Source: a virus. Taken from it: DNA of 64,000 nucleotides. The translations under genes and the position numbers were made by a program. Shown piece by piece: positions 17,618 to 58,479 of this stretch. Below the pieces are notes generated by a model. That model saw nothing but the letters and a program-made list of their open reading frames with translations. It ran no database searches and was not told where the DNA came from. How positions within the stretch are numbered: the stretch's first letter is position 1; every line of letters starts with the position of its first letter. The stretch is taken from positions 28,990 through 92,989 of IMG/VR virus record IMGVR_UViG_3300017917_004266; one strand, given 5' to 3'.

Positions 17618-19150
17618 ATGAGTGCAATAGTAGATGATATTTTATTTGTAAAAAATGACTCATTTGCTTCATATGTCAATCATTATCTTGAATATCAAGT
17701 AAAAAGTTTTGGTGATTTTATAGATTCAAATGCTTATTTAAGTCATCCTACACTTGGATTTACAAAAGATAATCGTATCACAGGATATATACCTCAAACT
17801 GGGTGGCATCCACAATATATATATTTTTATGATCGTGAAAGTAGAGCATCTGCAGCTAATATAATTATATACATATATCCTTCTCCAAGAGAAATAAAAT
17901 GCGAAGATTATTTTTTATCTAGCATACCATTAATATCTAATTGTGGAATAAATTCTCATTCAATTTCAGTTTTAATAGATAGTTTAACTTGTTATAAATG
18001 TGTATCAAATGATACAACAGATCAAACTTGTGAAATAAATGGTTATTTTAGTTTTCCTCCAGATTGTCCACCAAATTCGTTTTTATCTACGGTATATATA
18101 GGGGTTGGTAAACCATGTTATGAGTGTACTATTGGTTCTTCCTCGTCATCAGCATCATCATCGTCTTCATCTCCAGGTGTACCACCAGGAGGTGGTCCAG
18201 GAGCTGGCGCAGGTGGAGGACCAGGCCAAGATGATCCTGGATGGCCACCAGGAAGACCTCCAAGTAGTTCTTCATCTTCTTCGTCTTCATCTTCTTCCTC
18301 ATCTTCTAGTAGTTCTTCTTCCTCGTCGTCATCTTCTTCGAGTAGTTATTCTTCTTCGTCATCTTCTTGTATTGATTGTAGTAGTAGTAGTTCTTCTAGT
18401 AGCAGTGGACCTAGATATGGTGGTGGACCTGGTGGACCTAGTGGACCTGGTAAAAAAGGACCAGGATATGGTCCTAGACCTAGACCAAAGAAACCATGTG
18501 AATGTCCAGCTGGATACCAACAATCTCCTTGCCCAAATGATACTTGTGAAGATAGTGTATTTAATACAGGTAGTATAGTAGACTGTGAATCTGGAAGTAT
18601 TAGATGTGTAGTTTGTCGTCCAACTACTACACGCGCAGCAAGATGTGCAGCTTGTGATACTAGTGATCCACCTCGCTTTAATGCTTGTAAAAAACAAGAA
18701 GATCTACCAGGTTGTTCTTGGGGAAATTATTGTGAAGGAAGTTGGGCTGGCTGTACTGTATATCATGGTGGAGATCCAATTGAACCTCCATGTAAACGCT
18801 GGGTAGAAGATCCTTCTAAATGTCCAAAAGAATGTCCTCCTGCTCCAGAAGGGCCTTTACCACAATGTACAAAATGGGTATGTGAAAGTTATACATGTGA
18901 ATGTACTCGTTATGAAGGAGATAGCGCTTCAAATGTTGGAAAAAGAGTTGTAATGCGACCAGTACCTCCAGAAGAGTGTTCTTCTTCATCTTCTAGTGCG
19001 CCAAGTGCTGTAGTTAATCTATCTTTATTAAATAAATTATTAGATATTCAATTAGATGATAAAAATAATCAAAATTATTTAGATTTAAATAATTTAACTG
19101 ATGAAAAGATTCAAGAAGTAATTAATGAAATTAAAAATATTAATCAATAA
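17618..19150 (+). CDS. Cysteine-rich protein with poly-Ser and Gly/Pro linkers
   Basis: A 510-residue modular protein. The N-terminal 180 residues are an ordinary folded domain with a CYKC pair. Then come a Ser tract, a Gly/Pro-rich segment (PPGGGPGAGAGGGPG), a second Ser tract of about 35 residues (from residue 214), a third Ser tract, another Gly/Pro linker, and a C-terminal domain (about residues 290-450) with some 30 cysteines in CxxC and CxC spacings, suggesting a disulphide-rich or metal-binding knot. The last 50 residues are Asn/Asp/Leu-rich helix. The linkers separate globular modules as beads on a string. Function unknown; probably surface-exposed on the virion. Its stop overlaps the next start by one base. 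Confidence 0.55.
   Translation: MSAIVDDILFVKNDSFASYVNHYLEYQVKSFGDFIDSNAYLSHPTLGFTKDNRITGYIPQTGWHPQYIYFYDRESRASAANIIIYIYPSPREIKCEDYFLSSIPLISNCGINSHSISVLIDSLTCYKCVSNDTTDQTCEINGYFSFPPDCPPNSFLSTVYIGVGKPCYECTIGSSSSSASSSSSSPGVPPGGGPGAGAGGGPGQDDPGWPPGRPPSSSSSSSSSSSSSSSSSSSSSSSSSSSSYSSSSSSCIDCSSSSSSSSSGPRYGGGPGGPSGPGKKGPGYGPRPRPKKPCECPAGYQQSPCPNDTCEDSVFNTGSIVDCESGSIRCVVCRPTTTRAARCAACDTSDPPRFNACKKQEDLPGCSWGNYCEGSWAGCTVYHGGDPIEPPCKRWVEDPSKCPKECPPAPEGPLPQCTKWVCESYTCECTRYEGDSASNVGKRVVMRPVPPEECSSSSSSAPSAVVNLSLLNKLLDIQLDDKNNQNYLDLNNLTDEKIQEVINEIKNINQ
18258..18405 (+). repeat. Poly-serine tracts with mixed codons
   Basis: Roughly 45 serine codons in two blocks interrupted by one Tyr and CIDC. The codons alternate irregularly among TCT, TCA, TCC, TCG, AGT and AGC, so the protein repeat is kept while the DNA repeat is broken up. 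Confidence 0.75.
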
Positions 19151-39630: not shown

Positions 39631-40260
39631 TTAAAAATCTATTTTTAGCTTGATAGTATCTTCTTTCATATTAGCTACTTCGCCAGACGGAAATGAATCA
39701 AAAGCTATAGTATATCTTGTAGATTCATCATCATTAGGTTCACATCCATGAGATAATAATCCAGGAAACAATATTAATTTTCCAGCTTCTGGTCTAACAT
39801 AAAAATAATGATAGTTGTTATGTTTTAAAAAACACTTATCCCAAGATGGAGAGTCATATATATAATATGTTTCTCCACCTTTACCTTCTAGAGAAGTTGT
39901 TAGATAAAAAACTCCACTAATTATTGACATTGGATGTGAATGTACATGATGACGTTCATTTTTTTTACTTTTATTTGCCCATGAATGTATAACTTTATGT
40001 TCTCCTTTGTATCCAACATCTTTAGCTACCATAGCGAGGCACTCATTAAACCATTTATGTAGATCATTAAATTTTGGATTATATAATAAATTTAAATTTT
40101 CTTGCTTTTCTTCTTTTTGTTTTATATTAGGTATACTTATTTTATTGTGTGTATTTTGATAAAAATCTAATTTTAATACTTCTTCATAAGAACTTTTTAA
40201 AAGTTCATCTGAGGCTTTAAATTCATAAATAATGTCAATAAAAGCATTTAGCTTTTTCAT
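39631..40260 (-). CDS. 2-oxoglutarate/Fe(II) oxygenase family protein
   Basis: A 209-residue double-stranded beta-helix protein resembling the phage and marine bacterial TIGR02466-type group: HHVHSHPMSIISGVFYL holds the first iron-ligand histidines, AGKLILFPGLLSHGCEPN the distal His, and STRYTIAFD the Arg that binds 2-oxoglutarate. It hydroxylates an unknown substrate. It overlaps the gmd stop by 4 bases, so it may act on a sugar or surface protein made by the adjoining cluster, or on a virion protein. Family moderately sure, substrate unknown. Confidence 0.6.
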   Translation of the reverse strand: MKKLNAFIDIIYEFKASDELLKSSYEEVLKLDFYQNTHNKISIPNIKQKEEKQENLNLLYNPKFNDLHKWFNECLAMVAKDVGYKGEHKVIHSWANKSKKNERHHVHSHPMSIISGVFYLTTSLEGKGGETYYIYDSPSWDKCFLKHNNYHYFYVRPEAGKLILFPGLLSHGCEPNDDESTRYTIAFDSFPSGEVANMKEDTIKLKIDF

Positions 40261-41420
40261 ATCGAAGATATGTCTGATATTACCATTTTTTCAATTAAAT
40301 TGTCAAATGAAATTTTTGGTTTCCAGCCGAGTTCTTGTCTTGCTTTACTCGAATCACCTAATAATAATTCTACTTCTGCTGGACGATAAAATTTTGGATT
40401 AACTTTCATTAAAAGTTTATATTCATCTTTATTATTTTTTAAATAATAACCTTCATCTTCTGGTCTGCCATCATTTACATAAATCCAATGACCTTCTATA
40501 CCAGCAATTTTAAATGCTTTTTCTACAAACTCTCTAATAGTATGAGTTTCGTTTGATGAAAAAACATATTCTTTTGGAGTCCCATTATAATTAGGATTAT
40601 ACTTGTCTTGATTAAGCATCATCCATACTCCTTCTATAAAATCTTCTGAGTCGCTCCAATCTCTTTTTGCATCTAAATTACCTAATTCTAATGGTTTAAA
40701 ATCTTCATTATTTTTCAATGCATGATATATTCTAGCTACATTTTTAGTTATTTTTCTTGTTACAAATTCTTCTCCTCGTCTTGTGCCTTCATGATTAAAT
40801 AACCATCCCTGAATTGCATAAAGATTATAAGAGTCTCTATATACTTTTATTAATTGTCTAGAAGCAGCTTTACTTGCTCCATATGGGCTTCTTGGTCTTA
40901 ATGGATGTTTTTCATCTTGCGGAGCATAAATAACATTTCCAAATTCTTCGCTAGAGCCAGCTTGATAAAGCCTACATGTTGGTTTATATAATCTAATAGC
41001 TTCTAGGATATCTAAAATAGCAGTAGAATTAGCTGCCCAAGTTTGTCTGGCAAAATCCCAACTACTAGCCACAAAACTTTGTGCTGCAAAATTAATAAAA
41101 TAATCTGGCTGTAATTTTTCAACAATTCTTGCAATTGCATGAGAATCTGTTAAATCAAAATTAATTAAATGAAATCTATCAGAATTAATATGATTAATAT
41201 TTTTATGATTATAGACACTAAGCCTTCTTACTCCACCAAATATAGTATAATCTGTATTATTTAATAAATAATCAACCATATGACTTCCATCTTGACCAGT
41301 TACTCCAGTAACAATAACTACTTTTTTATCTTTTATTAATTTAATTGCGTCTTCAATATTTAAAATATTGGCAGTATCTATTTTTTTACCATAATATGTT
41401 TCTTTTAAAGAATTACTCAT
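40257..41420 (-). CDS. gmd: GDP-mannose 4,6-dehydratase
   Basis: A 387-residue extended SDR. The NAD(P) motif is TGVTGQDGSHM, followed by family signatures GGVRRLS, NFAAQSFVASSW, AGSSEEFG, the catalytic SPYGASKAAS (Tyr, Lys) and NHEGTRRGEEFVTRKI. It makes GDP-4-keto-6-deoxymannose, the precursor of fucose, rhamnose, perosamine and related sugars. Slightly longer than average because of a 20-residue N-terminal extension. The epimerase upstream may act on its product. No promoter seen; it probably depends on the sugar operon. Confidence 0.9.
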   Translation of the reverse strand: MSNSLKETYYGKKIDTANILNIEDAIKLIKDKKVVIVTGVTGQDGSHMVDYLLNNTDYTIFGGVRRLSVYNHKNINHINSDRFHLINFDLTDSHAIARIVEKLQPDYFINFAAQSFVASSWDFARQTWAANSTAILDILEAIRLYKPTCRLYQAGSSEEFGNVIYAPQDEKHPLRPRSPYGASKAASRQLIKVYRDSYNLYAIQGWLFNHEGTRRGEEFVTRKITKNVARIYHALKNNEDFKPLELGNLDAKRDWSDSEDFIEGVWMMLNQDKYNPNYNGTPKEYVFSSNETHTIREFVEKAFKIAGIEGHWIYVNDGRPEDEGYYLKNNKDEYKLLMKVNPKFYRPAEVELLLGDSSKARQELGWKPKISFDNLIEKMVISDISSI

Positions 41421-41487
41421 TTAAAGATTTTAAATTTTTGAATTGTATATTTCCAATAAATATTTAATAAATTTTATTTTAAAAAAT

Positions 41488-42255
41488 CTACATGCATAAT
41501 TTATTATATACTTCTTTAATCCCATTCTCTAAGCCTATAACTTCTATAGGTAAATTACTTATTCCACAATAATCTTGTAATATAACATTTCTTTCTATAT
41601 TAATATGTACTTTATAATTAGCAAGATTATTAATGAAATTGGCTATATTTAAAAGAGTTTTTTTATTTTTATAAGAACAATCAACTTCCTTTTGTAAATT
41701 CTCATTACATATATAATAATTAATAAGATTCAAAAGATCTTTCATATAAAAAAAATCCATTAATTTATTAGCATGAATTAACATTGGTTGTTTATTTATA
41801 TATCTTAAAAGATTGGCTTTTATAAATCTTGTATCTAATTCATTTTCATCAAAAACAGCAAATATTCTTATGTTATAAAAATTATCTTCTTTTTTTATTA
41901 TCTCATTAATTATTCTTTTGCTTTCAGCGTATTGACTTTCGTGATCCCAAATTTCTGCGCCAGAACCAAAAGATATTAATTTACTAAATTTATTTTTATT
42001 TAATAAAAGATTATTAAACATTTTTAAATTACTATCTAAAACTGATGTATCTTCTGTTTTTAATCTAGAACCGCCTTTAATAGCCGTATGAATTACGATA
42101 TCAAACTTTTTATTTTCAAACCATTTATTTGTAGCATCAGTATCCTCTAAATCAAAATTTACTCTAGAGATATTTGTTATATTATGCAGTTTGGATAAAT
42201 TATTGTTGATTGATTTAGCTATATATCCATTACCACCAGTAACTAAAATTTTCAT
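41488..42255 (-). CDS. NAD-dependent sugar epimerase/reductase
   Basis: A 255-residue extended SDR with the dinucleotide motif TGGNGYIAKS and the catalytic pair QYAESK (Tyr, Lys). Length and the DTDATNKWFENKKFDIVIHTA region resemble RmlD- or fucose-synthetase-like reductases. It overlaps the cyclase stop by 4 bases. It may reduce or epimerise the keto-sugar made by Gmd or by the RmlB/RfbH pair; the sequence does not say which. Confidence 0.7.
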   Translation of the reverse strand: MKILVTGGNGYIAKSINNNLSKLHNITNISRVNFDLEDTDATNKWFENKKFDIVIHTAIKGGSRLKTEDTSVLDSNLKMFNNLLLNKNKFSKLISFGSGAEIWDHESQYAESKRIINEIIKKEDNFYNIRIFAVFDENELDTRFIKANLLRYINKQPMLIHANKLMDFFYMKDLLNLINYYICNENLQKEVDCSYKNKKTLLNIANFINNLANYKVHINIERNVILQDYCGISNLPIEVIGLENGIKEVYNKLCM

Positions 42256-43262
42256 ATAACTTGTTTTAATTCTTTTACATTAATTGGTATTTTTTGAAAG
42301 CCAAAGGAGTTATCCATTAGTATCATATTAATCGTTGAGTTATCCGTGTTCTTTTTATCTTTTTTAGATTTTTCTATTAGATTATTTTTATTTATATCTT
42401 TTAAAAGATATGGACTAAAACCTGCTGACTGTATTATTTTAGTTAAAGTTTCATATATATCTTTAGTCGTATCATTTGACAATAAACCAATCTTTGAAGA
42501 AACTTTATTTGCTAATATCATTCCAAAAATAACAGCTATACCATGAGGTATTTGATAGTTTGTTTCACTTTCTATTGCATGACCAAATGTATGTCCAAAA
42601 TTTAAAACCTGTCTTTTATTTAAATCTAGTTCATCTTGCTCAATAAATTCTTTTTTGATATATAAGCATCTTTTTATAGAATCTTGTAATTCCATAAGAT
42701 CTTTATCTATTAATCTATCCATGCCTGTATTAAATTGTTCGAAAGATGATAATCCGCCTATTAAATGTAATTTTATTACTTCTCCGAGACCACTAAAATA
42801 ATCCTTTGTCTCCAATGTTTTTAAAAACTCAGAATTTATTATAATTTTAGATGGTGGATAGAATGTGCCAATTACATTTTTAAAAGAATCTAAATTTAAA
42901 GAAGTTTTACTTCCTATACAAGAATCAGCTTGAGCTAAAAGAGTAGTTGGTACGTAAGTCCAATCTACTCCTCGAAATAATATATTCATTGTAAATCCAC
43001 AAATATCTTGAGTAATTCCACCACCAATTACGATTACCTTAGTATTCTTTTTTATATTCTTTTTTAATAACTCTTGGCATACATAAATAGATGTATCAAT
43101 ATTTTTTTTGCTTTCTATTGCTTCAATAAGTATGGGTTGTTTATGGAATTTATTTGAATATAGTTGATATATATTCTTATCCGCAACTACAAAATCATTA
43201 TCTAGATTTAAATCTGTCTCAAAAGAGACTGAGTAGTTTTTATAAAAAGAGTTTACTAACAT
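42252..43262 (-). CDS. 3-dehydroquinate synthase-like sugar phosphate cyclase
   Basis: A 336-residue protein with the full AroB-type signature: GGGITQDICGF, FRGVDWTYVPTTLLAQADSCIGSKT, KNVIGTFYPP, GLGEVIK (zinc Glu), NFGHTFGHAIE and IPHGIAV (zinc His residues). AroB makes dehydroquinate from DAHP; relatives cyclise other sugar phosphates (2-deoxy-scyllo-inosose, valienol-type). In this nucleotide-sugar cluster a non-shikimate role, for example a cyclitol for a glycan, is likely, but true dehydroquinate synthase activity cannot be excluded. It lies between an SDR and an epimerase with overlapping ends. Confidence 0.8.
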   Translation of the reverse strand: MLVNSFYKNYSVSFETDLNLDNDFVVADKNIYQLYSNKFHKQPILIEAIESKKNIDTSIYVCQELLKKNIKKNTKVIVIGGGITQDICGFTMNILFRGVDWTYVPTTLLAQADSCIGSKTSLNLDSFKNVIGTFYPPSKIIINSEFLKTLETKDYFSGLGEVIKLHLIGGLSSFEQFNTGMDRLIDKDLMELQDSIKRCLYIKKEFIEQDELDLNKRQVLNFGHTFGHAIESETNYQIPHGIAVIFGMILANKVSSKIGLLSNDTTKDIYETLTKIIQSAGFSPYLLKDINKNNLIEKSKKDKKNTDNSTINMILMDNSFGFQKIPINVKELKQVI

Positions 43263-43909
43263 ATAGATAATCCTCCATCCACAGATATAATTTGACCAGT
43301 TATTTTTGTATTTAAACTTAAGTTATAAACTGCTTCCGCGATTTCTTCTGGTTTTAAAAGTCTTTTAATAGGAATCATCTTTTTGATTTCTTCTATTTGT
43401 TCCAGAGAATTATTTTTGTAAGTTAATTCTGTTTCTACATAACCTGGACATATACTATTTACTTGTATGTTATGCTCTGCTAATTCCAAAGCCGAACTTT
43501 TTGTTATTGAATCTAATGCTGCTTTAGAAGCAGAATATATAGCTCTACCCTTTTTAGCTGTATAACTTAAAATGGAACTGATGTTAATAATATGGCCTTT
43601 TTTATTCTTAATCATATTTTTTGAAAGATTTTTAATTAATAAAAGAGGTGCTATTGTATTTACTTGAAAAGTATTTGCTATATTTAGAATATCTAAATCT
43701 TTTAAATATGAGATATTATTTATTCCAGCATTGTTAATTAATATATCAATATCATCTGTAAATATTTCGCAATATTTTTGTATAGAATTAAAATCTATTA
43801 AATTTAATTCTGCTTTATTTGGGGCATAGACTTTATGATTCTGTTCTTCAAATTTATTTCTTATTGCAAGCCCTATACCTCTAGATCCTCCAGTTAAGAA
43901 TACTTTCAT
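43256..43909 (-). CDS. Short-chain dehydrogenase/reductase
   Basis: A 217-residue classical SDR with TGGSRGIGLA (cofactor), NNAGI, SSILSY (catalytic Ser) and YSASKAA (Tyr, Lys), then CPGYVETEL. Short for the class (usual about 245). It overlaps NeuB and the cyclase by 4 and 7 bases, so it forms a module with them. Substrate probably a keto-sugar or cyclitol; it is not distinguishable by sequence from fatty-acid-type reductases. Confidence 0.8.
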   Translation of the reverse strand: MKVFLTGGSRGIGLAIRNKFEEQNHKVYAPNKAELNLIDFNSIQKYCEIFTDDIDILINNAGINNISYLKDLDILNIANTFQVNTIAPLLLIKNLSKNMIKNKKGHIINISSILSYTAKKGRAIYSASKAALDSITKSSALELAEHNIQVNSICPGYVETELTYKNNSLEQIEEIKKMIPIKRLLKPEEIAEAVYNLSLNTKITGQIISVDGGLSIC

Positions 43910-44991
43910 AATCCTCTTTGGTATATGCTCTTTTTAAGATTTTCATTCTTAGAGTATTCACAATCAATATCATCAATCATCATAGCTGCATCTTTTTTGC
44001 AGTCTTTATTTAAGATAAAACCATAATCTCCTAGCATTAATTCTCGAACTGATATTTGTCCTTTTTGTATGGGGATTGCTAAATAAATATCATCCTTGTC
44101 AATAGTTTGACCAGCTTTTAAATCTTTCTTAAAGTAAACTCCTCTTATATAATTATCTAAGAAATTAGATTCTTCCTCTAATGGAAGAATTCTTTCTTGT
44201 GAGGAGTATCCGCAAATTATCTTTGCTTTATGCCAAGCCTTAAACCATTCGTCTATTTCTTGTGGTAAAGCAGAATATTTTGAGATTTCTTTACCATCAG
44301 AATTAATATCAATGTGCTTTTCAAATGTTCTAGCTCCTTTGGCATAAGATGCAAGCATTGAGTCATATGAATTTCCATGTTCGTGAGTAGATAATCCTAT
44401 TGTATTTAATGGGTATCTATTAATTAGATAGTCAATTTGATTCAATTGTAAATCTTGAATTTTTGTTGGATATGTGGCTATACAATGATTCAAGGCTAAT
44501 GGAATATTTCTATTTGCAAAAAATCTAACTAAATCATCTGTATCTTTTAAGGATAAACCTCCCAAAGAAACTATTACTGGTTTTCTAAGTTCTGCTATCT
44601 TATTTAATAAGACCCAATCATTATTATCAGCGCTAGCTACTTTAATAATTGGTAGATTTAATTTATCACAAAAATCAACAGATTTTTCATCAAATGGAGT
44701 AGACATGGGTATCATGCCATGATGTTTAATACTGTCAATTAATGTCTGGTAGTCTTTATCAGACATCTTTGTTTCTATTGTTCTTCTTATATATCTAATA
44801 TCTTTTCTATCTTTAAAATCTTTATGAATAAAATTCTCTACATCTCTAAATTGAAGTTTAATTGCTGCTTTTACATTATTAAACTTAACAATTTTTGCAA
44901 ATTCGCTTACTATCTTTAAGCCTCTTTCTAGGCTACCTAAGTGATTATTAGTCATCTCTAGCACGAATAGATCTTCAAATATATTATTCAT
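43906..44991 (-). CDS. neuB: NeuB/SpsE-family sialic-acid-type synthase
   Basis: A 361-residue protein with the NeuB TIM-barrel pattern (VLEMTNNHLGS, AAIKLQFRD, MSTPFDEKSVDF, IKVASADNNDW, PVIVSLGG, LNHCIATYPT, GLSTHEHG) and a C-terminal SAF/antifreeze domain (RGVYFKKDLKAGQTIDKDDIYLAIP). It condenses phosphoenolpyruvate with an N-acetylhexosamine to give a nonulosonic acid. Differences: CSxYP is CIATYP, and no NeuA or NeuC partner is in the window, so the final sugar is unclear. It heads a block of sugar genes with overlapping ends. Confidence 0.8.
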   Translation of the reverse strand: MNNIFEDLFVLEMTNNHLGSLERGLKIVSEFAKIVKFNNVKAAIKLQFRDVENFIHKDFKDRKDIRYIRRTIETKMSDKDYQTLIDSIKHHGMIPMSTPFDEKSVDFCDKLNLPIIKVASADNNDWVLLNKIAELRKPVIVSLGGLSLKDTDDLVRFFANRNIPLALNHCIATYPTKIQDLQLNQIDYLINRYPLNTIGLSTHEHGNSYDSMLASYAKGARTFEKHIDINSDGKEISKYSALPQEIDEWFKAWHKAKIICGYSSQERILPLEEESNFLDNYIRGVYFKKDLKAGQTIDKDDIYLAIPIQKGQISVRELMLGDYGFILNKDCKKDAAMMIDDIDCEYSKNENLKKSIYQRGL

Positions 44992-45008
44992 AATAGATTA
45001 TATTAAAT

Positions 45009-46754
45009 TTAATTGAAATTGTCTGATATAAACATATCTGTTAATTCTCCAGGAATTATCTTTCCATTTTTATCTATACCTTTTGGTACTACTTTTGGTT
45101 CAAATGTTTCATTTTCATGAGCAAATATTTCGCATAATACTGGTTTATTTATATTTAAAACTTCAACAATAGCATTATCTATTTCAGAATTATTATTTAT
45201 AGATAAATAATCAATATCGAATCCATAAGCTATTTTTTTAAAAGAAGGAGTTGAAACGCCATTATTTGGTCCAGAAGCATATTCATTTCCTTTAAAGAAT
45301 AATTTCTGAGTCTGTTTTATAGAAAAATAGCCATTATTGTTAATAATAAATAATTTTATTGGTAAATTATAATATTTTAATGTTTGTAGTTCTTGCAAAT
45401 TCATCATTATACTTCCATCACCTTCTATACAAATTATATCTTTTTTATTATTAGCAAAACAGGCTCCAATTGCGGCTGGTAATCCATACCCCATAGAAGC
45501 ACATCCAACATTAGTAAAAAGTCTTTGATTTTCTTTTAATCTTATGGATTGTTGAGTTACTACGTGAGCTGCTCCATCGCTTGTTACTATTGGGATATTT
45601 GTTGGTAAAATTTTGGCTAACTTTTCTATAAAAACATAGATGCTAGTCTTATCTTTTAAATTATGGTGTTTATCAAAAACGAATCTATCTTCAAGTCTTA
45701 AATTTTTACAATAATTTCTCCAAATATTAACATTTGGTTCTTTGACTGATCTATTAATTAATGATAAGAAATTTTTAATATCAGCTTTAATTTTTATATC
45801 AATATTAAATTTATGTTTATTTATCTCATTTTCATCAATATCTACTATAACTTTTTTTGCATTTTTCGCAAAAGCATTTACATTATAACCAGTAGTTTTT
45901 AATATTAATCTTGAACCAAAAACAAGTAAAAGATCGCATTCTTGTATAATTTTATTTGAAGATCTTTGACCTAAGATACCATGTCTACCAACATAGTATT
46001 CATAACTTTCATTAACAGTATCAATTGCGCTATGGCAATTAGTCATAACAGGAATTTTTGTTTTATTTAAGAAATCATAAAATTCTTGTATTGCTCCAGA
46101 TAGTCTAATTCCACTTCCAATTACTATAAGTGGTTTTTTGCTTTCGTTAATTAAAGATAAAACATTTTCTAAATCTATTATATTAATGAACTCTTGATTA
46201 TTAGGTGGAGTAAAACTTTCTATTGATTCTGGATCTATATCTGCTCCTTGAATATCTAAAGGAATATCTATCCAAACTGGCCCTTTTCTTCCAGAGGTAG
46301 CTTCATAGTATGCTTTTTCTAAATGATATTTAATTGTGTTTTTATCCGTAATCATAACGGCATACTTTGTCATAGGCTTTACAGATTCAATAATTGGATA
46401 TTCTTGATCTCCTATTTGTCTGCATTTAGTATTTTGAATTGTCTGATTTAAACTAACTTGTCCAGATAAAAATAAACAAGGAATAGAATCAACCCAGCAT
46501 CCAAATACTCCATTTAAAGCATTGATTCCTCCAGGCCCAGTTGTAACTAATGCAACTCCTAAATGATTATTAATCCTGCAATAGCCTTCTGCTGCAATTG
46601 CACAAGCTTGTTCGTGATGATTACATACGTAATTGATATTTTTATTTTTACCTAGTGAATCTATTAAATGAATACATCCGCCACCAGAAACAGTAAAGAC
46701 TTCTTTTATTCCTTTTTCTATTAAAAAGTTAACAATGAAATCTGAGACTTTCAT
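45009..46754 (-). CDS. TPP-dependent acetolactate-synthase-like enzyme
   Basis: About 581 residues; I take the ATG at 46754, which overlaps the upstream stop as TAATG, rather than the in-frame TTG 6 bases earlier. It shows the ThDP family pattern: VFTVSGGGCIHLID, NHHEQACAIAAEGYCR (cofactor-activating Glu), VTTGPGGINALNG, a mid domain, and the ThDP/Mg motif EGDGSIMMNLQELQTLKYYNLPIKLFIINNN. Acetolactate-synthase-like enzymes in sugar clusters (YerE is the known case) add a two-carbon unit from pyruvate to a 4-keto-3,6-dideoxysugar. With RmlB-like and RfbH-like genes beside it, that role is plausible; a pyruvate-decarboxylase role is an alternative. Confidence 0.75.
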   Translation of the reverse strand: MKVSDFIVNFLIEKGIKEVFTVSGGGCIHLIDSLGKNKNINYVCNHHEQACAIAAEGYCRINNHLGVALVTTGPGGINALNGVFGCWVDSIPCLFLSGQVSLNQTIQNTKCRQIGDQEYPIIESVKPMTKYAVMITDKNTIKYHLEKAYYEATSGRKGPVWIDIPLDIQGADIDPESIESFTPPNNQEFINIIDLENVLSLINESKKPLIVIGSGIRLSGAIQEFYDFLNKTKIPVMTNCHSAIDTVNESYEYYVGRHGILGQRSSNKIIQECDLLLVFGSRLILKTTGYNVNAFAKNAKKVIVDIDENEINKHKFNIDIKIKADIKNFLSLINRSVKEPNVNIWRNYCKNLRLEDRFVFDKHHNLKDKTSIYVFIEKLAKILPTNIPIVTSDGAAHVVTQQSIRLKENQRLFTNVGCASMGYGLPAAIGACFANNKKDIICIEGDGSIMMNLQELQTLKYYNLPIKLFIINNNGYFSIKQTQKLFFKGNEYASGPNNGVSTPSFKKIAYGFDIDYLSINNNSEIDNAIVEVLNINKPVLCEIFAHENETFEPKVVPKGIDKNGKIIPGELTDMFISDNFN

Positions 46755-47707
46755 TACCAAATAAATTTATGTTTATAATATTGAACGATGTCTGGTATCT
46801 GCTTATCAAATACTGCTTCAGCTTTCCATCCTAATGTTTTTAATTTATCATCATTTAAAGCATATCTAATATCTTGTCCTGCCCTAGAGAATGAAAAATC
46901 AACATAATCATTGATATTAAAATCAGTATGATTTAAAAATGAACTTACAATTTTTTTGACTGTATCTAAATTTGACTGTTCAAATCCACCAGATATATTA
47001 TATATATCATTTCTTACTTCTTTTTCTATAATTTTAATAATTGCTTTTGCCGTATCCTCTGCATGTAACCAATTTCTTATTGGAGTTCCATTATTATGAA
47101 GCGGAACTTTTCTTCCTAAATTTAAATATTTACATGTTTTAGGTATTAATTTTTCTATATATTGTCCTATACCATAATTATTCGTTGGCCTAACTATTAT
47201 ATAATTTATATTATATGTTCTTGCCCATGCTAAAATTAACATATCTGCTGCTGCTTTTGTTGCTGAATATGGATTAGAAGGTTTTAAAATATCTGTTTCT
47301 AAATGAATTCCATTACTTATATCTCCATATACTTCATCTGTGCTAAAATGCAAAAGTATTGGTTTTTTATCTGATTCTTGTCTATAGTTTTTAATTAGAT
47401 TTAATATATTATGAACGCCATTAATATTAGAATGTATAAAATCATCACTATTGCTTATAGAATTTCCAACATGAGTTTCTGCGGCTGTGTTTATAATATA
47501 ATCACAATCATATAAAAATTTAAGATCATTTATATCACAATGGACAAATGAAAAATTCTTATATCTATTAAATTCATCTAATAAATCTTTATTTGCTGCA
47601 TATGTAATTTTATCAACACCTTTCACAAACCATCCTTTTTGTAAACATAATCTTGTTACATAAGATCCAATAAAACCTAAGCAGCCAGTTATATATACTA
47701 TTTTCAT
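46754..47707 (-). CDS. dTDP/CDP-glucose 4,6-dehydratase-like protein
   Basis: A 317-residue extended SDR of the RmlB type: TGCLGFIGSYV (NAD), INTAAETHVGNSI, HFSTDEVYGDI with the catalytic Thr-Asp-Glu, NPYSATKAAADML (Tyr, Lys), and VRPTNNYG. It removes water across C4-C6 of a nucleotide-activated glucose. Immediately downstream of the RfbH-like dehydrase and upstream of the TPP enzyme (overlap of 4 and 1 bases), consistent with supplying the 4-keto-6-deoxy substrate for 3-deoxygenation. Nucleotide (dTDP or CDP) cannot be told from the sequence. Confidence 0.8.
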   Translation of the reverse strand: MKIVYITGCLGFIGSYVTRLCLQKGWFVKGVDKITYAANKDLLDEFNRYKNFSFVHCDINDLKFLYDCDYIINTAAETHVGNSISNSDDFIHSNINGVHNILNLIKNYRQESDKKPILLHFSTDEVYGDISNGIHLETDILKPSNPYSATKAAADMLILAWARTYNINYIIVRPTNNYGIGQYIEKLIPKTCKYLNLGRKVPLHNNGTPIRNWLHAEDTAKAIIKIIEKEVRNDIYNISGGFEQSNLDTVKKIVSSFLNHTDFNINDYVDFSFSRAGQDIRYALNDDKLKTLGWKAEAVFDKQIPDIVQYYKHKFIW

Positions 47708-52058: not shown

Positions 52059-52952
52059 TTAAAAATTACTAAAATAATTATTAAGAAAACTAAATATGGC
52101 TAAAATCATTATTGGCCCAAATGCACCAACTCGCATAAATACTATAATACCAATATGTAAAAGTATACCTAAGATTATACCTATTGGTCTAAATTCAGAT
52201 ATAAAAAATAATGGAAAAGCCATATATTCAAAAATTATTGTTGCCCACGTTAATAATTTTAAACTAAAATCTAAATATTTATTTAAAGGCAATTTAAAAT
52301 ATATTTTTCTACCATATGTTGCATGATAAATAACTTTTTTAATAGCATATCCGCTTAACCATTCGTCATATTTTAATTTAACCATCGCAGAAAATAAATA
52401 CATCATACATATATTTATTTGGAGCAATCTAATTGTCCAACCATTTATAAAATCAAGATTTGATGCTATGCCTAAAATATTATCTATAGAATATCTTGAA
52501 CCACAATCTATAAATATAAGAGATATTAACATGAATCTTATAACTACATCTCCAGCAGTACTAATTATTGGGTGTATTCTATTTTGAATTGATATAAAAC
52601 TTATTGTAAAAATAATTAATGATATATTTGTAAACAATCCTATAATTGAAGTTATTCCAAAAATAAAAAATAAAATAAAAATTATTTTATGAAATAATTT
52701 AGAATGTGGAAATATATTAAATAATGATAGATGAGGATATGTATTTTTATCAACATATAAATAATTTTTACCATCAAAAATACCATCTGGTTTTGAAAAA
52801 TTCCAAATGTCTCTTATCATTGATAAAAACCATAAAATTGGAAAACTACAATATGTAATTCTTAAAAAAGATGCAAAAGAAGTATGTATATTATATCCAA
52901 GAAAAAAATTACATATATCCTGTATTTGCATTGTATACTCCAAACCATTCAA
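52059..52952 (-). CDS. HTTM-domain membrane protein
   Basis: A 297-residue polytopic protein with about six to seven membrane segments, resembling the HTTM (vitamin-K gamma-carboxylase-related) membrane domain: the conserved RIHPIISTAGDVVIRFMLISLIFIDCGSRYSID segment (positions about 125-157), then RLLQINICMMYLFSAMVKL and EWLSGYAI. HTTM proteins are of uncertain function in bacteria; gamma-carboxylation is not proven for most. A phage gene of this class is unusual. It overlaps its partner upstream by 44 bases; a later start at the Met near residue 8 would shorten the overlap. Confidence 0.65.
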   Translation of the reverse strand: MNGLEYTMQIQDICNFFLGYNIHTSFASFLRITYCSFPILWFLSMIRDIWNFSKPDGIFDGKNYLYVDKNTYPHLSLFNIFPHSKLFHKIIFILFFIFGITSIIGLFTNISLIIFTISFISIQNRIHPIISTAGDVVIRFMLISLIFIDCGSRYSIDNILGIASNLDFINGWTIRLLQINICMMYLFSAMVKLKYDEWLSGYAIKKVIYHATYGRKIYFKLPLNKYLDFSLKLLTWATIIFEYMAFPLFFISEFRPIGIILGILLHIGIIVFMRVGAFGPIMILAIFSFLNNYFSNF

Positions 52953-53638: not shown

Positions 53639-53995
53639 ATGCTATTAACATTAAGAAATGGACATAGACCATTAGATATATTTGAAAATATATTTAATGA
53701 TTCTATATTTAATTACGATAAAGAGTATTCTGACTTTGTATTAGAAAATGATCAATATTCCCTTGAAATTCCTCTCGCAGGATTCAAAAAAGAAAATATT
53801 GATGTTACTACAAATCAAGAATATCTAACAGTTAGGGCTACAAGAAAAGAAGGCAAAGTAAAGTATGAGAAGTCTTTTTACTTGCCAAGAAAGGTAGATC
53901 TTTCAGAGGTAAAAGCAAAGCATGAAGATGGTTTGCTTTTAATTACCTTTGGTAAAGAAAATAAAAAATTACAAAATAAAATAAAAATAGACTAA
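53639..53995 (+). CDS. hsp20: Small heat-shock protein (Hsp20)
   Basis: A 118-residue alpha-crystallin-domain protein: NDQYSLEIPLAGFKKENIDV, TVRATRKEGK and the C-terminal signature AKHEDGLLLITF (family A...GVL). The N-terminal arm is short and there is no clear IxI tail beyond NKIKID, so oligomers may be small. Small heat-shock proteins prevent aggregation and are also carried by T4-like cyanophages. Strong ribosome site (AAAGGAGG). It stands alone on the plus strand between two minus-strand operons, with a hairpin 8 bases after the stop. Confidence 0.92.
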   Translation: MLLTLRNGHRPLDIFENIFNDSIFNYDKEYSDFVLENDQYSLEIPLAGFKKENIDVTTNQEYLTVRATRKEGKVKYEKSFYLPRKVDLSEVKAKHEDGLLLITFGKENKKLQNKIKID

Positions 53996-54122: not shown

Positions 54123-54389
54123 TTATTTATCAAGATAATTTTTAATGTTTTCTATTAATTTTTTTCTTTTTCTACGTTCTAATACGGTTATAAATGTAGC
54201 TACTGATATTGGAAAAAATATTCTAAGAAAAAATTGCATATGATCTTCTTTTGTTAATAGATCAAAATAATTAATATAAAGATCACTCATACCCCAAAGA
54301 GTAAAGAGCATAGCTGGAATAAATATAATAAAGAAAACTTTATCGTAATATTTTAAATTATTCCACCAATTTAATATTTTATTAAACAT
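54123..54389 (-). CDS. Small membrane protein, two spans
   Basis: An 88-residue protein with two membrane segments (VFFIIFIPAMLFTLWGM, and FFPISVATFITVL) and a basic C-terminus (ERRKRKKLIENIKN). An AGTGTAA motif lies 10 bases upstream. Could be a holin-like protein by topology, but no lysin gene is near; unknown. Confidence 0.55.
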   Translation of the reverse strand: MFNKILNWWNNLKYYDKVFFIIFIPAMLFTLWGMSDLYINYFDLLTKEDHMQFFLRIFFPISVATFITVLERRKRKKLIENIKNYLDK

Positions 54390-54399
54390 AACATACTCT

Positions 54400-54407
54400 T
54401 TACACTA
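54400..54407 (-). promoter_or_regulatory. AGTGTAA late-type motif
   Basis: TAGTGTAA on the minus strand, 10 bases before the ATG at 54389; it overlaps the end of the upstream gene. Confidence 0.45.
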
Positions 54408-54722
54408 GTATGGAGTAGCTAATGGAGGATTAAAATTACTCATAACTGGAGGGATTTGATTATCTATATTAGATTGTTCTTTACCACTTGATGTATCTAA
54501 TTCGACACTTAATGCTTCATCTATATTTAATTCTTTATCTCCTACATTAAACATTGTAGTTTTTCCATCCATTTCTACTATTACTGGAGAAGTATGTCCA
54601 TCTATACTTAAAAGAATTTCACCTTTATTATTTCTTTTTAATGAAACTTTAATTTGATTTTCTGTATAACAATAAGTTGTTAAAACTATTGCAGCTAATA
54701 TTATTAATAATATTTTTTTCAT
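54405..54722 (-). CDS. Small exported protein
   Basis: A 105-residue protein with a signal peptide (MKKILLIILAAIVLTTYCYT, possible cleavage after residue 20; a Cys in the region could suit a lipoprotein but the lipobox is poor). The mature part is beta-rich (QIKVSLKRNNKGEILLSIDGH) with an acidic, Ser-rich C-terminus. It overlaps the next gene by 4 bases. Periplasmic or surface role likely; function unknown. Confidence 0.55.
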   Translation of the reverse strand: MKKILLIILAAIVLTTYCYTENQIKVSLKRNNKGEILLSIDGHTSPVIVEMDGKTTMFNVGDKELNIDEALSVELDTSSGKEQSNIDNQIPPVMSNFNPPLATPY

Positions 54723-54958
54723 TTCTTAAATTCTCCTGCGGCAGTTTGAATATCTAATTTATTTGCTGTTTCTTTTACTGCTATTGATCCTAATAAAGTA
54801 ACGATCAATAAAAATACTAATGCTAAAGAATAATATGTTTTTTCTTCTGCTTTCTTTTTGGCTCTATATTGATGAAAATTATATATAAATTTTTCTGTTT
54901 GTTCAGAAGTTGGAACATAATAAGTTTCTTTTAATAAAGTTTTCAATCTATTATCCAT
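54719..54958 (-). CDS. Single-span membrane protein
   Basis: A 79-residue protein: a cytoplasmic helical N-terminus of about 40 residues (RLKTLLKETYYVPTSEQTEKF), one membrane segment (YSLALVFLLIVTLLGSIAV) and a short outer tail. The plan resembles small anti-sigma or accessory proteins common beside surface-protein genes in PEP-CTERM bacteria. It overlaps the PEP-CTERM gene end by 8 bases. Confidence 0.5.
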   Translation of the reverse strand: MDNRLKTLLKETYYVPTSEQTEKFIYNFHQYRAKKKAEEKTYYSLALVFLLIVTLLGSIAVKETANKLDIQTAAGEFKK

Positions 54959-56885
54959 TTCTTCTCAATCTCCTAGCGAATAATAAAATAGCAGAACCAA
55001 ATACTAAAAGACCAAATGGAGAAGGCTCTGGTATTATGTTGACAGTTGATATATAGCCAAGAGTAGAGTCAGCTAATGTAGCTTGACTTGTATTTACAGA
55101 ATAAGAAACATCTTGAGAACCTGTTCTTGTTAAGAACTCATTATATGTTTCATATGTTAAGCCATTGAATGTTAATGTTCCAAAGCCGCTTTGAAAATAC
55201 ATATTATAAGTTGCATTTGCTATATCACTATTAAAATCATTAACATTAAAAAATCCAGCTTGAAATGTAGAGTTTAAACTACTAAGTAAATTATTATACA
55301 TTAAATTATAAGCGTTTGAATTTAAATATAGATTAACAATATTTGCAGATGTTAATGCTACTGTAAATGGCGGAGTATTTGTTATTTTTAATACGTCATT
55401 ATTATAAGATGTACCATTATGCAGTAAGTCGCTAGTAATCTCAAATGCGAAGCTCATTCCCCCACTTGGGTCTACTGCTCCTACGGTTAGTAATCCTGGA
55501 CTATTTCCTGGACTTACAATAGCATCTCCACCAATTGTACCAGCAATAATTCCATTTCCATTTAATGTTGTGCCTGTATTATTTGCGCTTAGAGAAGTTC
55601 CTTTGTATATAAAAACATTTCCTGTTCCAAAAGCAGATCCATTAGTATTGTTTACGCTAATATTCCAACCTGTTCCACTAGAATTAAAATATGTGTTTCC
55701 AGAATATGTACTAGCGCCATTAAATGCCATTGTCCTGCCTCCTACAGAACTTGAACTATTTGTAAATATTAAGCCTGTACTGCTATTAACAAATCCTCCA
55801 TAAATGGTAGTAGAGTTATCTACTTTGATAGATCTAGTAGCATTATTTAAATCAATACTACCACCAAGAATATTTGCCCAACTTAATCCTCCAATAGTGA
55901 CATCTCCATTTAACAAAATATTATTATTAATCATTCTAACTGCATCGCTATTGTCTCCTATGCTTTGGCTCTGGCCAAATGTTGAGCCTTGATTGAGTAC
56001 AAGTCTTGCAGTACCAAATGCGTTTTTATTAGCATATCCTAATTGTCCATATACATTAATATCTCCTGTAACAGTATTGCTTCCTCTTAATTCTACAAGG
56101 CCTGTGTTAGCGCTTTCATTGATAGATAGCGCTCCATCTGCAGATGAAGTAATGTCGCCAGTAACAATTAATGCTCTGCTAGTAGATGACCCTGTGCCGA
56201 GAATAAGTCTAGAGCCATTATTAATAGTAATATTACCATTAATTCTATTTGTTGTAGAAGAGTCTGTGATAGAAACTACTACGTAACCTGTACCTGTAGT
56301 AGCTATTGTCATAGGCACATTCACGACTGTCGAAATAGCGTTTGATGCTAATCCTATTCTAGAATTTACTCCAGTAGATGCATCTGTATTACCTACAATA
56401 GTTAGTAATGAGCCTACTCCACCATTAATAGGACCCGTAACTCCCAATGTCGCTCCCGAAGACCCCCAATTTAAATTTATTCCTGCACCTAAAGTAATGC
56501 CATTTGTGCTTCTAATATATCTATTTTGTGAAGATGTAGTTCCACTATTCCAAAAAGTATAACCAGAAGAATTTACTTGAACATTATTTGCGTATACAGT
56601 ACTACTACTTAAAGTAACTTGACCAGCTATTCCTTGAAATATAGCTACATTAGTTGGTCCCGTTCCCGCGCTTGTCCAACCTCCAGATACCGTTGTAGTT
56701 GTTCCATTAATATCTGTAGACCATGTTGTTCCTGTAGTAGTCCAATTTCCAGTACCACCAACTCCAGAAGTTGTACCATTAACATCCCAATATAATGTTG
56801 CAGCTTTTACATTTGAGCATAAAAAAACCGCAATTAAACTTGCGGCTGTATTTTTTAGTAACCTTTTAAATAGGTTTATTTTCAT
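54951..56885 (-). CDS. PEP-CTERM sorted surface protein with autotransporter-type repeats
   Basis: A 644-residue exported protein. N-terminus: basic start, then the signal peptide AASLIAVFLCSNVKA. Middle: Gly/Ser/Thr/Asn-rich autotransporter-associated beta-strand repeats (GTGNWTTTGTTW, YSGNTYFNSSGTG). C-terminus (residues 617-644): the three-part PEP-CTERM sorting signal, PEPSPFG, a hydrophobic helix (LLVFGSAILLFA) and a basic end (RRLRRNG). Such proteins are handled by a host exosortase, which cleaves and transfers them to the cell surface or a biofilm. No exosortase is seen here, so a host enzyme must be used. The 5' half is GC-richer than the rest (29 of 60 bases at 56401-56460), suggesting transfer. 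It lies in a late-type operon with a capsid-associated gene. Confidence 0.85.
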   Translation of the reverse strand: MKINLFKRLLKNTAASLIAVFLCSNVKAATLYWDVNGTTSGVGGTGNWTTTGTTWSTDINGTTTTVSGGWTSAGTGPTNVAIFQGIAGQVTLSSSTVYANNVQVNSSGYTFWNSGTTSSQNRYIRSTNGITLGAGINLNWGSSGATLGVTGPINGGVGSLLTIVGNTDASTGVNSRIGLASNAISTVVNVPMTIATTGTGYVVVSITDSSTTNRINGNITINNGSRLILGTGSSTSRALIVTGDITSSADGALSINESANTGLVELRGSNTVTGDINVYGQLGYANKNAFGTARLVLNQGSTFGQSQSIGDNSDAVRMINNNILLNGDVTIGGLSWANILGGSIDLNNATRSIKVDNSTTIYGGFVNSSTGLIFTNSSSSVGGRTMAFNGASTYSGNTYFNSSGTGWNISVNNTNGSAFGTGNVFIYKGTSLSANNTGTTLNGNGIIAGTIGGDAIVSPGNSPGLLTVGAVDPSGGMSFAFEITSDLLHNGTSYNNDVLKITNTPPFTVALTSANIVNLYLNSNAYNLMYNNLLSSLNSTFQAGFFNVNDFNSDIANATYNMYFQSGFGTLTFNGLTYETYNEFLTRTGSQDVSYSVNTSQATLADSTLGYISTVNIIPEPSPFGLLVFGSAILLFARRLRRNG

Positions 56886-56891
56886 ATTTCC

Positions 56892-57425
56892 TTACTCCTT
56901 TTTAAGTTCATCTAATTTAATAGACACCTCTGGTTTAATTTCGTTCATTTTTTTTTCTTTTAATCTTTGCACATATATCCAATCATCTGCAAAAAATCCT
57001 TCTTTAATTATTATACCATAAGTTTTAGTAACATATAATTTTATTTTTTCTTGATATTCATTTTTATTTCCAGCAGAAGCAATTGGCATTGTTCCCCAGT
57101 TTGGGTCATACATCCATAATGAATTAGCATATTCAAATATTGTTACGGCATGCCCAATTATCATATCTGGATCATCTTTATAAGAATATGTAAAACAATA
57201 TATAGTATTCCAAACTTCTGTATGTGTTTTAAGATAAAAATTACATTTAGAAGCCCAAATTAAAGAATCAACAAAACAAGAATTGGGTATATTAGTTACA
57301 GATGTATAATATTTAAAATTAAATCCCCATTTAAAGAAAAACCACCAAGATATTATTATCGCAACTCCAACTAATATTAGTTTTGATCTACCAAACCATT
57401 TTTTAATTTTCTTTTTGATTTTCAA
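56892..57425 (-). CDS. Membrane-anchored transglutaminase/papain-like protein
   Basis: A 177-residue protein with a basic start, one membrane segment (LILVGVAIIISWWFFF, residues 16-31) and an outer domain with a candidate catalytic triad: Cys50 in IPNSCFVDSLIWAS, His92 in IIGHAVTIFEY and Asp107 in LWMYDPNWGTM. The His-to-Asp spacing of 15 and the GHA..DPNWG wording are those of transglutaminase-like peptidases. It sits immediately upstream of the PEP-CTERM protein (6-base gap) and overlaps the capsid-associated gene by 23 bases. It may process or cross-link that surface protein or peptidoglycan; inference. Confidence 0.55.
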   Translation of the reverse strand: MKIKKKIKKWFGRSKLILVGVAIIISWWFFFKWGFNFKYYTSVTNIPNSCFVDSLIWASKCNFYLKTHTEVWNTIYCFTYSYKDDPDMIIGHAVTIFEYANSLWMYDPNWGTMPIASAGNKNEYQEKIKLYVTKTYGIIIKEGFFADDWIYVQRLKEKKMNEIKPEVSIKLDELKKE

Positions 57426-58479
57426 TCTTTTTAAGTTGAATTTCTGTTTTTCCTAAAAGGTCACCTTTTTTCCAAGTTGATCCATCATTTGTACATTCAT
57501 AAACTACTCCATAACCCATATCTTCTGGAAGTTCTCTAATTTCTTTTACTGTGCCTTCGCTGCCGTAATGTTTGCACATGGCATTAATGTTTTTAACTTT
57601 ATCTCCTATATCAAACATACAATGATGATCCATTGGTTGACATATCATTTCTTGAGCTTGAGCTTCTTCTTTATTAAACATTACATAATTGTGGATTGTA
57701 ATAATATAATCTTCTGCGAGCGCAGCCATTTGTTGTAAGAATGGCTCTGTTAGATTTTCTTTAACTATTGGATCTTCTAGCTTATTCAAAATATTTTGCG
57801 CATGAACTTGAATTGAAGTAATTGAACCAACAATCATTTCATAAAAATCTTCTTTATAATCTTGTAGTTCTTCCTCTGGGCTTTCAATTTCTTCTACGTT
57901 ATTTAATTCTGCAGTCATTAATTCGTTTTGATCAAATTCTGTTTCGCCATCCCATTCATATTCTTCGTTTAAATAATCATTAGCTTGTGCTTTTTTAATG
58001 GCTTCTTCTGTTGGACGATCTGGAGAACCTGGCCTTGCTGGACGATAATTCTTTCCCATTCTTTTCTTTTTTTGTTGAATGTTATACCATAAACCCTTAT
58101 TTTTAGCTTGAACATCTACTTCTAGTGTTATTTCTTCTTCTAAATTTTGAACTGATCCACAATTTGGTTTACCACATGATCCTGTGATTTTACTAACTGG
58201 TTTAGCACTCCACATTTTACAACTCCAATAATTTGCTTTCCATTTTGGACCAGGATTACTACAGCCATGTCTAGATCTATATGCTTTTCTTCTTTCTGGA
58301 TTATCTCTTTTAATTGACATATTTGGATCACCAAAAGTAACTTTTACAATATTACCTTTATCATTTTTAACATAAACACCAAATTTCTTTTTGCTTCCTT
58401 TTGGAAGTCTAAATGGTTTATTTAATGGTGCTTTACCTTTTTTGACTGCTTTTAATTGTTCAGAAAAATCTATTTCCAT
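57403..58479 (-). CDS. Capsid/maturation-associated phage protein
   Basis: A 358-residue protein. The N-terminal half includes KPFRLPKGSKKKFGVYV, FGDPNMSIKRDNPERRKAYRSRHGCSNPGP and YWSCKMW, a block repeatedly found in phage head-maturation and portal-region proteins (DUF5872-like), with paired cysteines that may bind zinc. A Pro-rich linker (KNYRPARPGSPDRP) leads to a helical acidic domain and a final small beta domain (FDIGDKVKNINAMCKHYGSEGTVKEI), which looks SH3/KOW-like. AAGTGTAA 12 bases upstream supports late expression. It heads the operon with the PEP-CTERM protein. Confidence 0.6.
   Translation of the reverse strand: MEIDFSEQLKAVKKGKAPLNKPFRLPKGSKKKFGVYVKNDKGNIVKVTFGDPNMSIKRDNPERRKAYRSRHGCSNPGPKWKANYWSCKMWSAKPVSKITGSCGKPNCGSVQNLEEEITLEVDVQAKNKGLWYNIQQKKKRMGKNYRPARPGSPDRPTEEAIKKAQANDYLNEEYEWDGETEFDQNELMTAELNNVEEIESPEEELQDYKEDFYEMIVGSITSIQVHAQNILNKLEDPIVKENLTEPFLQQMAALAEDYIITIHNYVMFNKEEAQAQEMICQPMDHHCMFDIGDKVKNINAMCKHYGSEGTVKEIRELPEDMGYGVVYECTNDGSTWKKGDLLGKTEIQLKKIENQKEN

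Follow-up and report, generated by a model that had tools for sequence, protein, structure and literature searches.

Known phage proteins that act at the cell surface in superinfection exclusion or lysogenic conversion are mostly small lipoproteins, membrane proteins or sugar-modifying enzymes. Phage SM1 of Streptococcus mitis provides a different, Gram-positive example: its PblA and PblB are phage-encoded adhesins displayed on the bacterial surface. In cells, a separate route is PEP-CTERM/EpsH (exosortase) sorting, whose operons mostly consist of a single gene (Haft et al. 2006, PMC1569441). Searching the open-access literature for papers that join PEP-CTERM or exosortase to phages or viruses, we came across no description of a phage system, although absence there is not proof.

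The window analysed here, a stretch of 64,000 nucleotides, belongs to a 92,989-base IMG/VR record. The original prediction placed in it a PEP-CTERM surface protein carried by a phage, and a 644-amino-acid open reading frame lies exactly where it was said to be. That this frame encodes a PEP-CTERM-tagged surface protein, and that it is an exchangeable cassette found in many phages, is well supported. The features of the window are as follows.

40257-47707, minus strand: surface-sugar genes (NeuB, two GDP-mannose-dehydratase-like proteins, a 3-dehydroquinate-synthase-like protein and a TPP enzyme)
54123..54389, minus strand: 88-aa protein with two hydrophobic stretches, the conserved border of the exchangeable block
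54405..54722, minus strand: 105-aa exported protein with a signal peptide and a PPV..ATP end
54719..54958, minus strand: 79-aa single-helix protein, its ATG overlapping the stop of the PEP gene
54951..56885, minus strand: PEP-CTERM surface protein (cassette gene), 644 aa, from the translation, PEP-CTERM model matches and homologues
54954..55031, minus strand: PEP-CTERM tail, aa 619-644, from model matches, with positions computed from the reading frame
55023-55031, 54975-55016 and 54960-54974, minus strand: PEP motif, hydrophobic helix and basic RRLRR of the tail, likewise computed
56799..56885, minus strand: signal peptide, about aa 1-29, MKINLFKRLLKNTAASLIAVFLCSNVKAA, kept in first cassette genes
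56820..56847, minus strand: intrinsic-terminator-like hairpin in the first cassette gene, within the codons of its signal peptide (stem of 8 bp, loop of 6 nt, then a T run)
56892..57425, minus strand: 177-aa membrane-anchored cysteine-protease-like protein, the anchor gene of the locus
54396..57429, no strand: block replaced in a close relative (empty site), from alignment of the flanks

How does this locus compare with the described systems? Like the proteins of superinfection exclusion and lysogenic conversion, the cassette proteins would be a phage-encoded alteration of the infected cell's surface; unlike them, their bodies are exosortase-tagged and swappable. With PblA and PblB they would share the display of phage proteins on bacteria, but those two are Gram-positive and attach by another route. 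Several cassette proteins contain autotransporter-type beta-strand repeats above cut-off (TIGR02601 / PF12951), yet they end in a PEP tail and no outer-membrane barrel domain is reported for any of them. The closest likeness is to PEP-CTERM/EpsH substrates (PMC1569441): a signal peptide, no other membrane helix, a C-terminal PEP motif with hydrophobic helix and basic cluster, and diverse Ser/Thr/Asn-rich bodies with little homology. The cassette differs from that system in being phage-carried and arranged in tandem at one conserved locus, in its shared signal peptides, and in having no exosortase in the same genome.

In the focal protein, 15-residue windows of strong hydrophobicity occur at amino acids 9-31 and 621-640 only. 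The first peak agrees with the predicted signal peptide, and no further transmembrane segment is seen ahead of the tail. The tail itself, NIIPEPSPFGLLVFGSAILLFARRLRRNG, can be read directly as PEP motif, hydrophobic helix and basic cluster. PEP-CTERM models match exactly there, at amino acids 618-642, but under their curated cut-offs: PF07589 gives 15.0 bits (cut-off 20.7) and TIGR02595 gives 10.5 bits (cut-off 16). Taken alone, these scores make a weak case. The relatives settle the identity, with PF07589 at 24.8 and 21.0 bits in homologues and sister cassette proteins, TIGR02595 at 17.0-25.2 bits in five related cassette proteins, and the classic tail retained in the homologues L003, L004 and L005. 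The repeats attributed to the focal protein fared less well: neither TIGR02601 nor PF12951 matches it at E<=1, whereas TIGR02601 exceeds its cut-off in related cassette proteins, with up to 40.9 bits. Ser, Thr and Asn make up 39% of the focal body, where the larger open reading frames of the contig average 22.5%.

Two further parts of the original prediction found no support. The gene at the head of the operon, described as capsid-associated, encodes 358 amino acids and matches families of unknown function only. The supposed late-type motif, TATAAATA, occurs 42 times against 34.4 +/- 5.8 expected, with none at the head of the focal operon; it is not enriched, and late expression of the focal gene is not supported.

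The contig is a phage. Three metagenomes contribute five further viral contigs that encode proteins 88-94% identical to the focal protein, and the replication, lysozyme-like, capsid-candidate and tape-measure-like proteins of the record are also related to those of contigs G002, G004 and G005. The contig is not chimeric, because about 30 IMG/VR loci from related phages have the focal gene in conserved synteny. The carriers form a family of uncultured water phages; comparison of the focal protein, the 177-aa neighbour, the capsid candidate and a protein of another body type with annotated phages gave no match.

Querying with the 177-aa protein encoded just upstream recovered 58 viral loci. In the main group, 30 loci with the window and a few near-duplicates counted in, the anchor gene is followed by one to four exported PEP-tailed proteins wherever enough downstream sequence is available. 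All 46 non-redundant cassette proteins have PEP near the C-terminus; their bodies fall into at least eight families. The tail, whose absence from homologues would have spoken against the original prediction, is retained in relatives either in its classic form of PEP, helix and basic cluster (37/46) or as a PEP variant with a different, amphipathic end (9/46). The signal peptide of the first cassette gene is conserved even though the bodies behind it are unrelated. Eleven more distant loci have the anchor gene without a PEP gene. Contigs end within 600 bases of the anchor on the downstream side in 17 of the 58 loci, against 3 upstream, a pattern that fits assemblies breaking where the sequence is variable.

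Some cassettes include a prepilin-like protein above the TIGR02532 cut-off; such proteins adjoin PEP genes at L062:10256-10924, L067:10994-11662, L052:11733-12401 and L103:8391-9059. The place of the 105-aa protein is taken in related cassettes by a FecR-domain protein of about 300 amino acids with a similar end, and an exported protein of this type lies in the cassette region at L054:11741-12652 (PF04773, 32.6 bits).

A close relative, L072/G017, supplies a natural empty site. Its DnaE is 91% and its capsid-candidate protein 96% identical to those of the window phage, and both flanks align at 76-88% nucleotide identity around a replacement of about 725 bp that contains no PEP gene. Such near-identical phages with and without the cassette are natural pairs for testing. 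The module moves independently, as two further comparisons indicate: the PEP protein of G005 shares 92% identity with the focal one and its adjacent 177-aa protein only 54%, while in L036 the neighbour is 92% identical and the body is different. The same proteins as in the cassette also occur in the 217-kb phage G022 and in the related context L115. G022 has a T4-type terminase, and neither the DnaE nor the capsid candidate of the window phage has a homologue in it, so that the cassette is present in at least two lineages, the second unrelated to the first. The focal body is under purifying selection (dN/dS 0.06-0.16), and across cassettes 10 different codon combinations encode PEP; the proteins are kept for function. 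Variation takes the form of body swapping, not of fast point change inside the focal family.

The anchor gene encodes a protein with a single N-terminal membrane helix, in which Cys50, His92, Asp107 and Asn109 are invariant across 28 sequences. It matches no Pfam family. A structure model built from 5 sequences was poor (pLDDT 55); with 28 sequences the pLDDT rose to 77. The best PDB matches of this model are vasohibins, with probability 1.0 but with E 0.03 and a TM of 0.40 at best, and a BFVD search gave no convincing match. With moderate confidence, then, the modelled fold resembles vasohibins, transglutaminase-like cysteine proteases. The protein is not simply a processing enzyme of the PEP proteins, because it is found without PEP genes. 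We also considered whether the 79-aa gene is restricted to PEP-gene loci and rejected the idea: a homologue of 61-62 amino acids overlaps the 177-aa gene in PEP-less phages.

The hairpin in the signal-peptide codons has no equal in strength elsewhere in the 93-kb contig. It uses the Ala codons GCC (8% usage) and GCG (5%), and its RNA folding has z = -2.6. It is present in 33 of 33 loci examined, although L069 lacks one stem pair and L070 two. GCG and GCA are retained in all 31 distinct sequences, and stem bases persist through amino-acid changes (GCC/ACC/TCC; ATT/CTT/GTT/TTT). When the viral collection was scanned for the exact pattern, 29 contigs came up. In 24 the hairpin lies in the signal peptide of a cassette-type gene; a further contig, L168, is a truncated part of L049, whose own hairpin likewise lies in a signal peptide; the other four, identical to one another, have it as an ordinary intergenic terminator. 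Neither the second phage lineage nor the later array genes have the hairpin. Pair covariation is uninformative and gives no support either way, most of the stem being invariant; the case is made by conservation at synonymous and amino-acid-changing positions. Transcription probably goes on only when ribosomes translate the start of the gene, and the hairpin may be a translation-coupled attenuator.

A search of 22 phage records turned up no exosortase; processing, if any, must therefore rely on a host enzyme. What is that host? We scanned 84,980 genomes twice by short exact peptide patterns, once from the focal alignment and once from the FLWNNTG body family, and neither scan revealed a bacterial relative; a tblastn search against plasmids returned nothing. 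The PEP tails, the beta-strand repeats and the TIGR02532-type prepilin presumably point to a host of the Planctomycetes-Verrucomicrobia type; a Verrucomicrobia-type host is our guess.

What do these proteins do? The reading that we place first, and towards which we lean slightly, is that exchangeable, host-exosortase-sorted proteins borne by the phage give the infected cell a new coat, most likely as a defence against competing phages. The host exosortase would sort the cassette proteins onto the surface of the infected cell; the new coat would hide or alter phage receptors and exclude competitors; and the bodies would be swapped between phages by recombination within a conserved frame, with the signal peptide ahead and the PEP tail behind. 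Exclusion of competing phages as the function of the coats is a tentative proposal. The tag and export signal, the PEP ends shared by many body families, the purifying selection, the independent movement of the module, the empty site, the second lineage and the surface-sugar genes of the contig (NeuB, GDP-mannose dehydratases, the 3-dehydroquinate-synthase-like protein, the TPP enzyme and glycosyltransferases) count in favour of recoating. The focal tail's scores under the curated cut-offs, the 22 phage records free of exosortase and the two genome scans without a bacterial relative count against it. Exosortase should not process the nine tails that lack a hydrophobic helix, which also counts against this sorting route. 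A more ambitious version, in which unrelated phages share a mobile surface-display system with swappable exosortase-tagged coats, signal-peptide codons that double as a terminator, translation-tied readthrough and a role in phage-against-phage competition, seems doubtful. Ranked second is an adhesive function, itself unlikely: as adhesins or matrix proteins, on infected cells or freed at lysis, the products would make cells clump or stick and let virions reach new hosts. The repeat-rich Ser/Thr/Asn bodies and the prepilin-like gene that joins the cassette in some phages would suit it, as would the need for PEP-CTERM proteins in Zoogloea floc formation, a finding that PMC12642866 cites (its reference 37), but clumping alone leaves the frequent swapping of bodies unexplained.

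The other readings rank lower. That the tail is only an inner-membrane anchor for periplasmic action, such as lysis or breach of the envelope together with the cysteine-protease-like and two-helix neighbours, is suggested by the position of the locus between those two genes; we consider it improbable, since both occur without the PEP gene in relatives, a lysozyme-like gene (recognised by eye) lies elsewhere at L006:3185-3811, and the PEP motif would be superfluous in a pure anchor. Decoys, saturating the host exosortase and so keeping host surface proteins such as receptors from being displayed, would need just the shared features, a tail and a signal peptide, and multiple copies per phage would fit; large bodies under purifying selection would be needless, which leaves this idea rather implausible. 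Virion components such as fibres or decorations are very improbable: the large repeat-rich bodies do resemble phage fibre proteins in composition, but the products have a signal peptide and a C-terminal membrane tail, and the gene lies outside the candidate structural block (G000:1-52 kb) and is missing from L072/G017. As for an assembly chimera or a passing host gene functionless in the phage, a host-type tag on a phage contig might suggest it, but the shared synteny, strong purifying selection and conserved hairpin make it scarcely credible.

If the recoating reading is true, phages exploit a host sorting system and redecorate infected cells with interchangeable proteins. Conflict between phages, and between phages and hosts, would then have an arm at the level of the cell surface in Gram-negative water bacteria, and the system would give a handle on the diversity of exosortase substrates.

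Several smaller observations concern the arrays and the contig. The second conserved tail type lacks a hydrophobic helix: behind PEP come ..[DE]LI..P.. and an amphipathic segment. It occurs behind different body types, mostly in genes that are not the last of the array (L001:10001-11962, L041:1384-3159, L041:3163-5208, L042:4057-4782, L062:7145-10102 and L115:4603-5349), and is possibly an unrecognised sorting signal. Mini reading frames of 52 amino acids at L041:5212-5370 and L042:9011-9169 encode a bare PEP tail and are apparently remnants of recombination in the array. Large proteins adjoining the cassette at L001:13622-15892 and L083:8968-10998 mark a further variable spot; by eye, their ends (EIDWVKVYQK) resemble family-16 glycoside hydrolases. 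Elsewhere in the window, a protein among the candidate tail genes (17618-19150, plus strand) has long serine runs and proline/glycine-rich stretches, and the phage also encodes an HTTM-domain membrane protein (52059-52952, minus strand) and an Hsp20 chaperone (53639-53995, plus strand).
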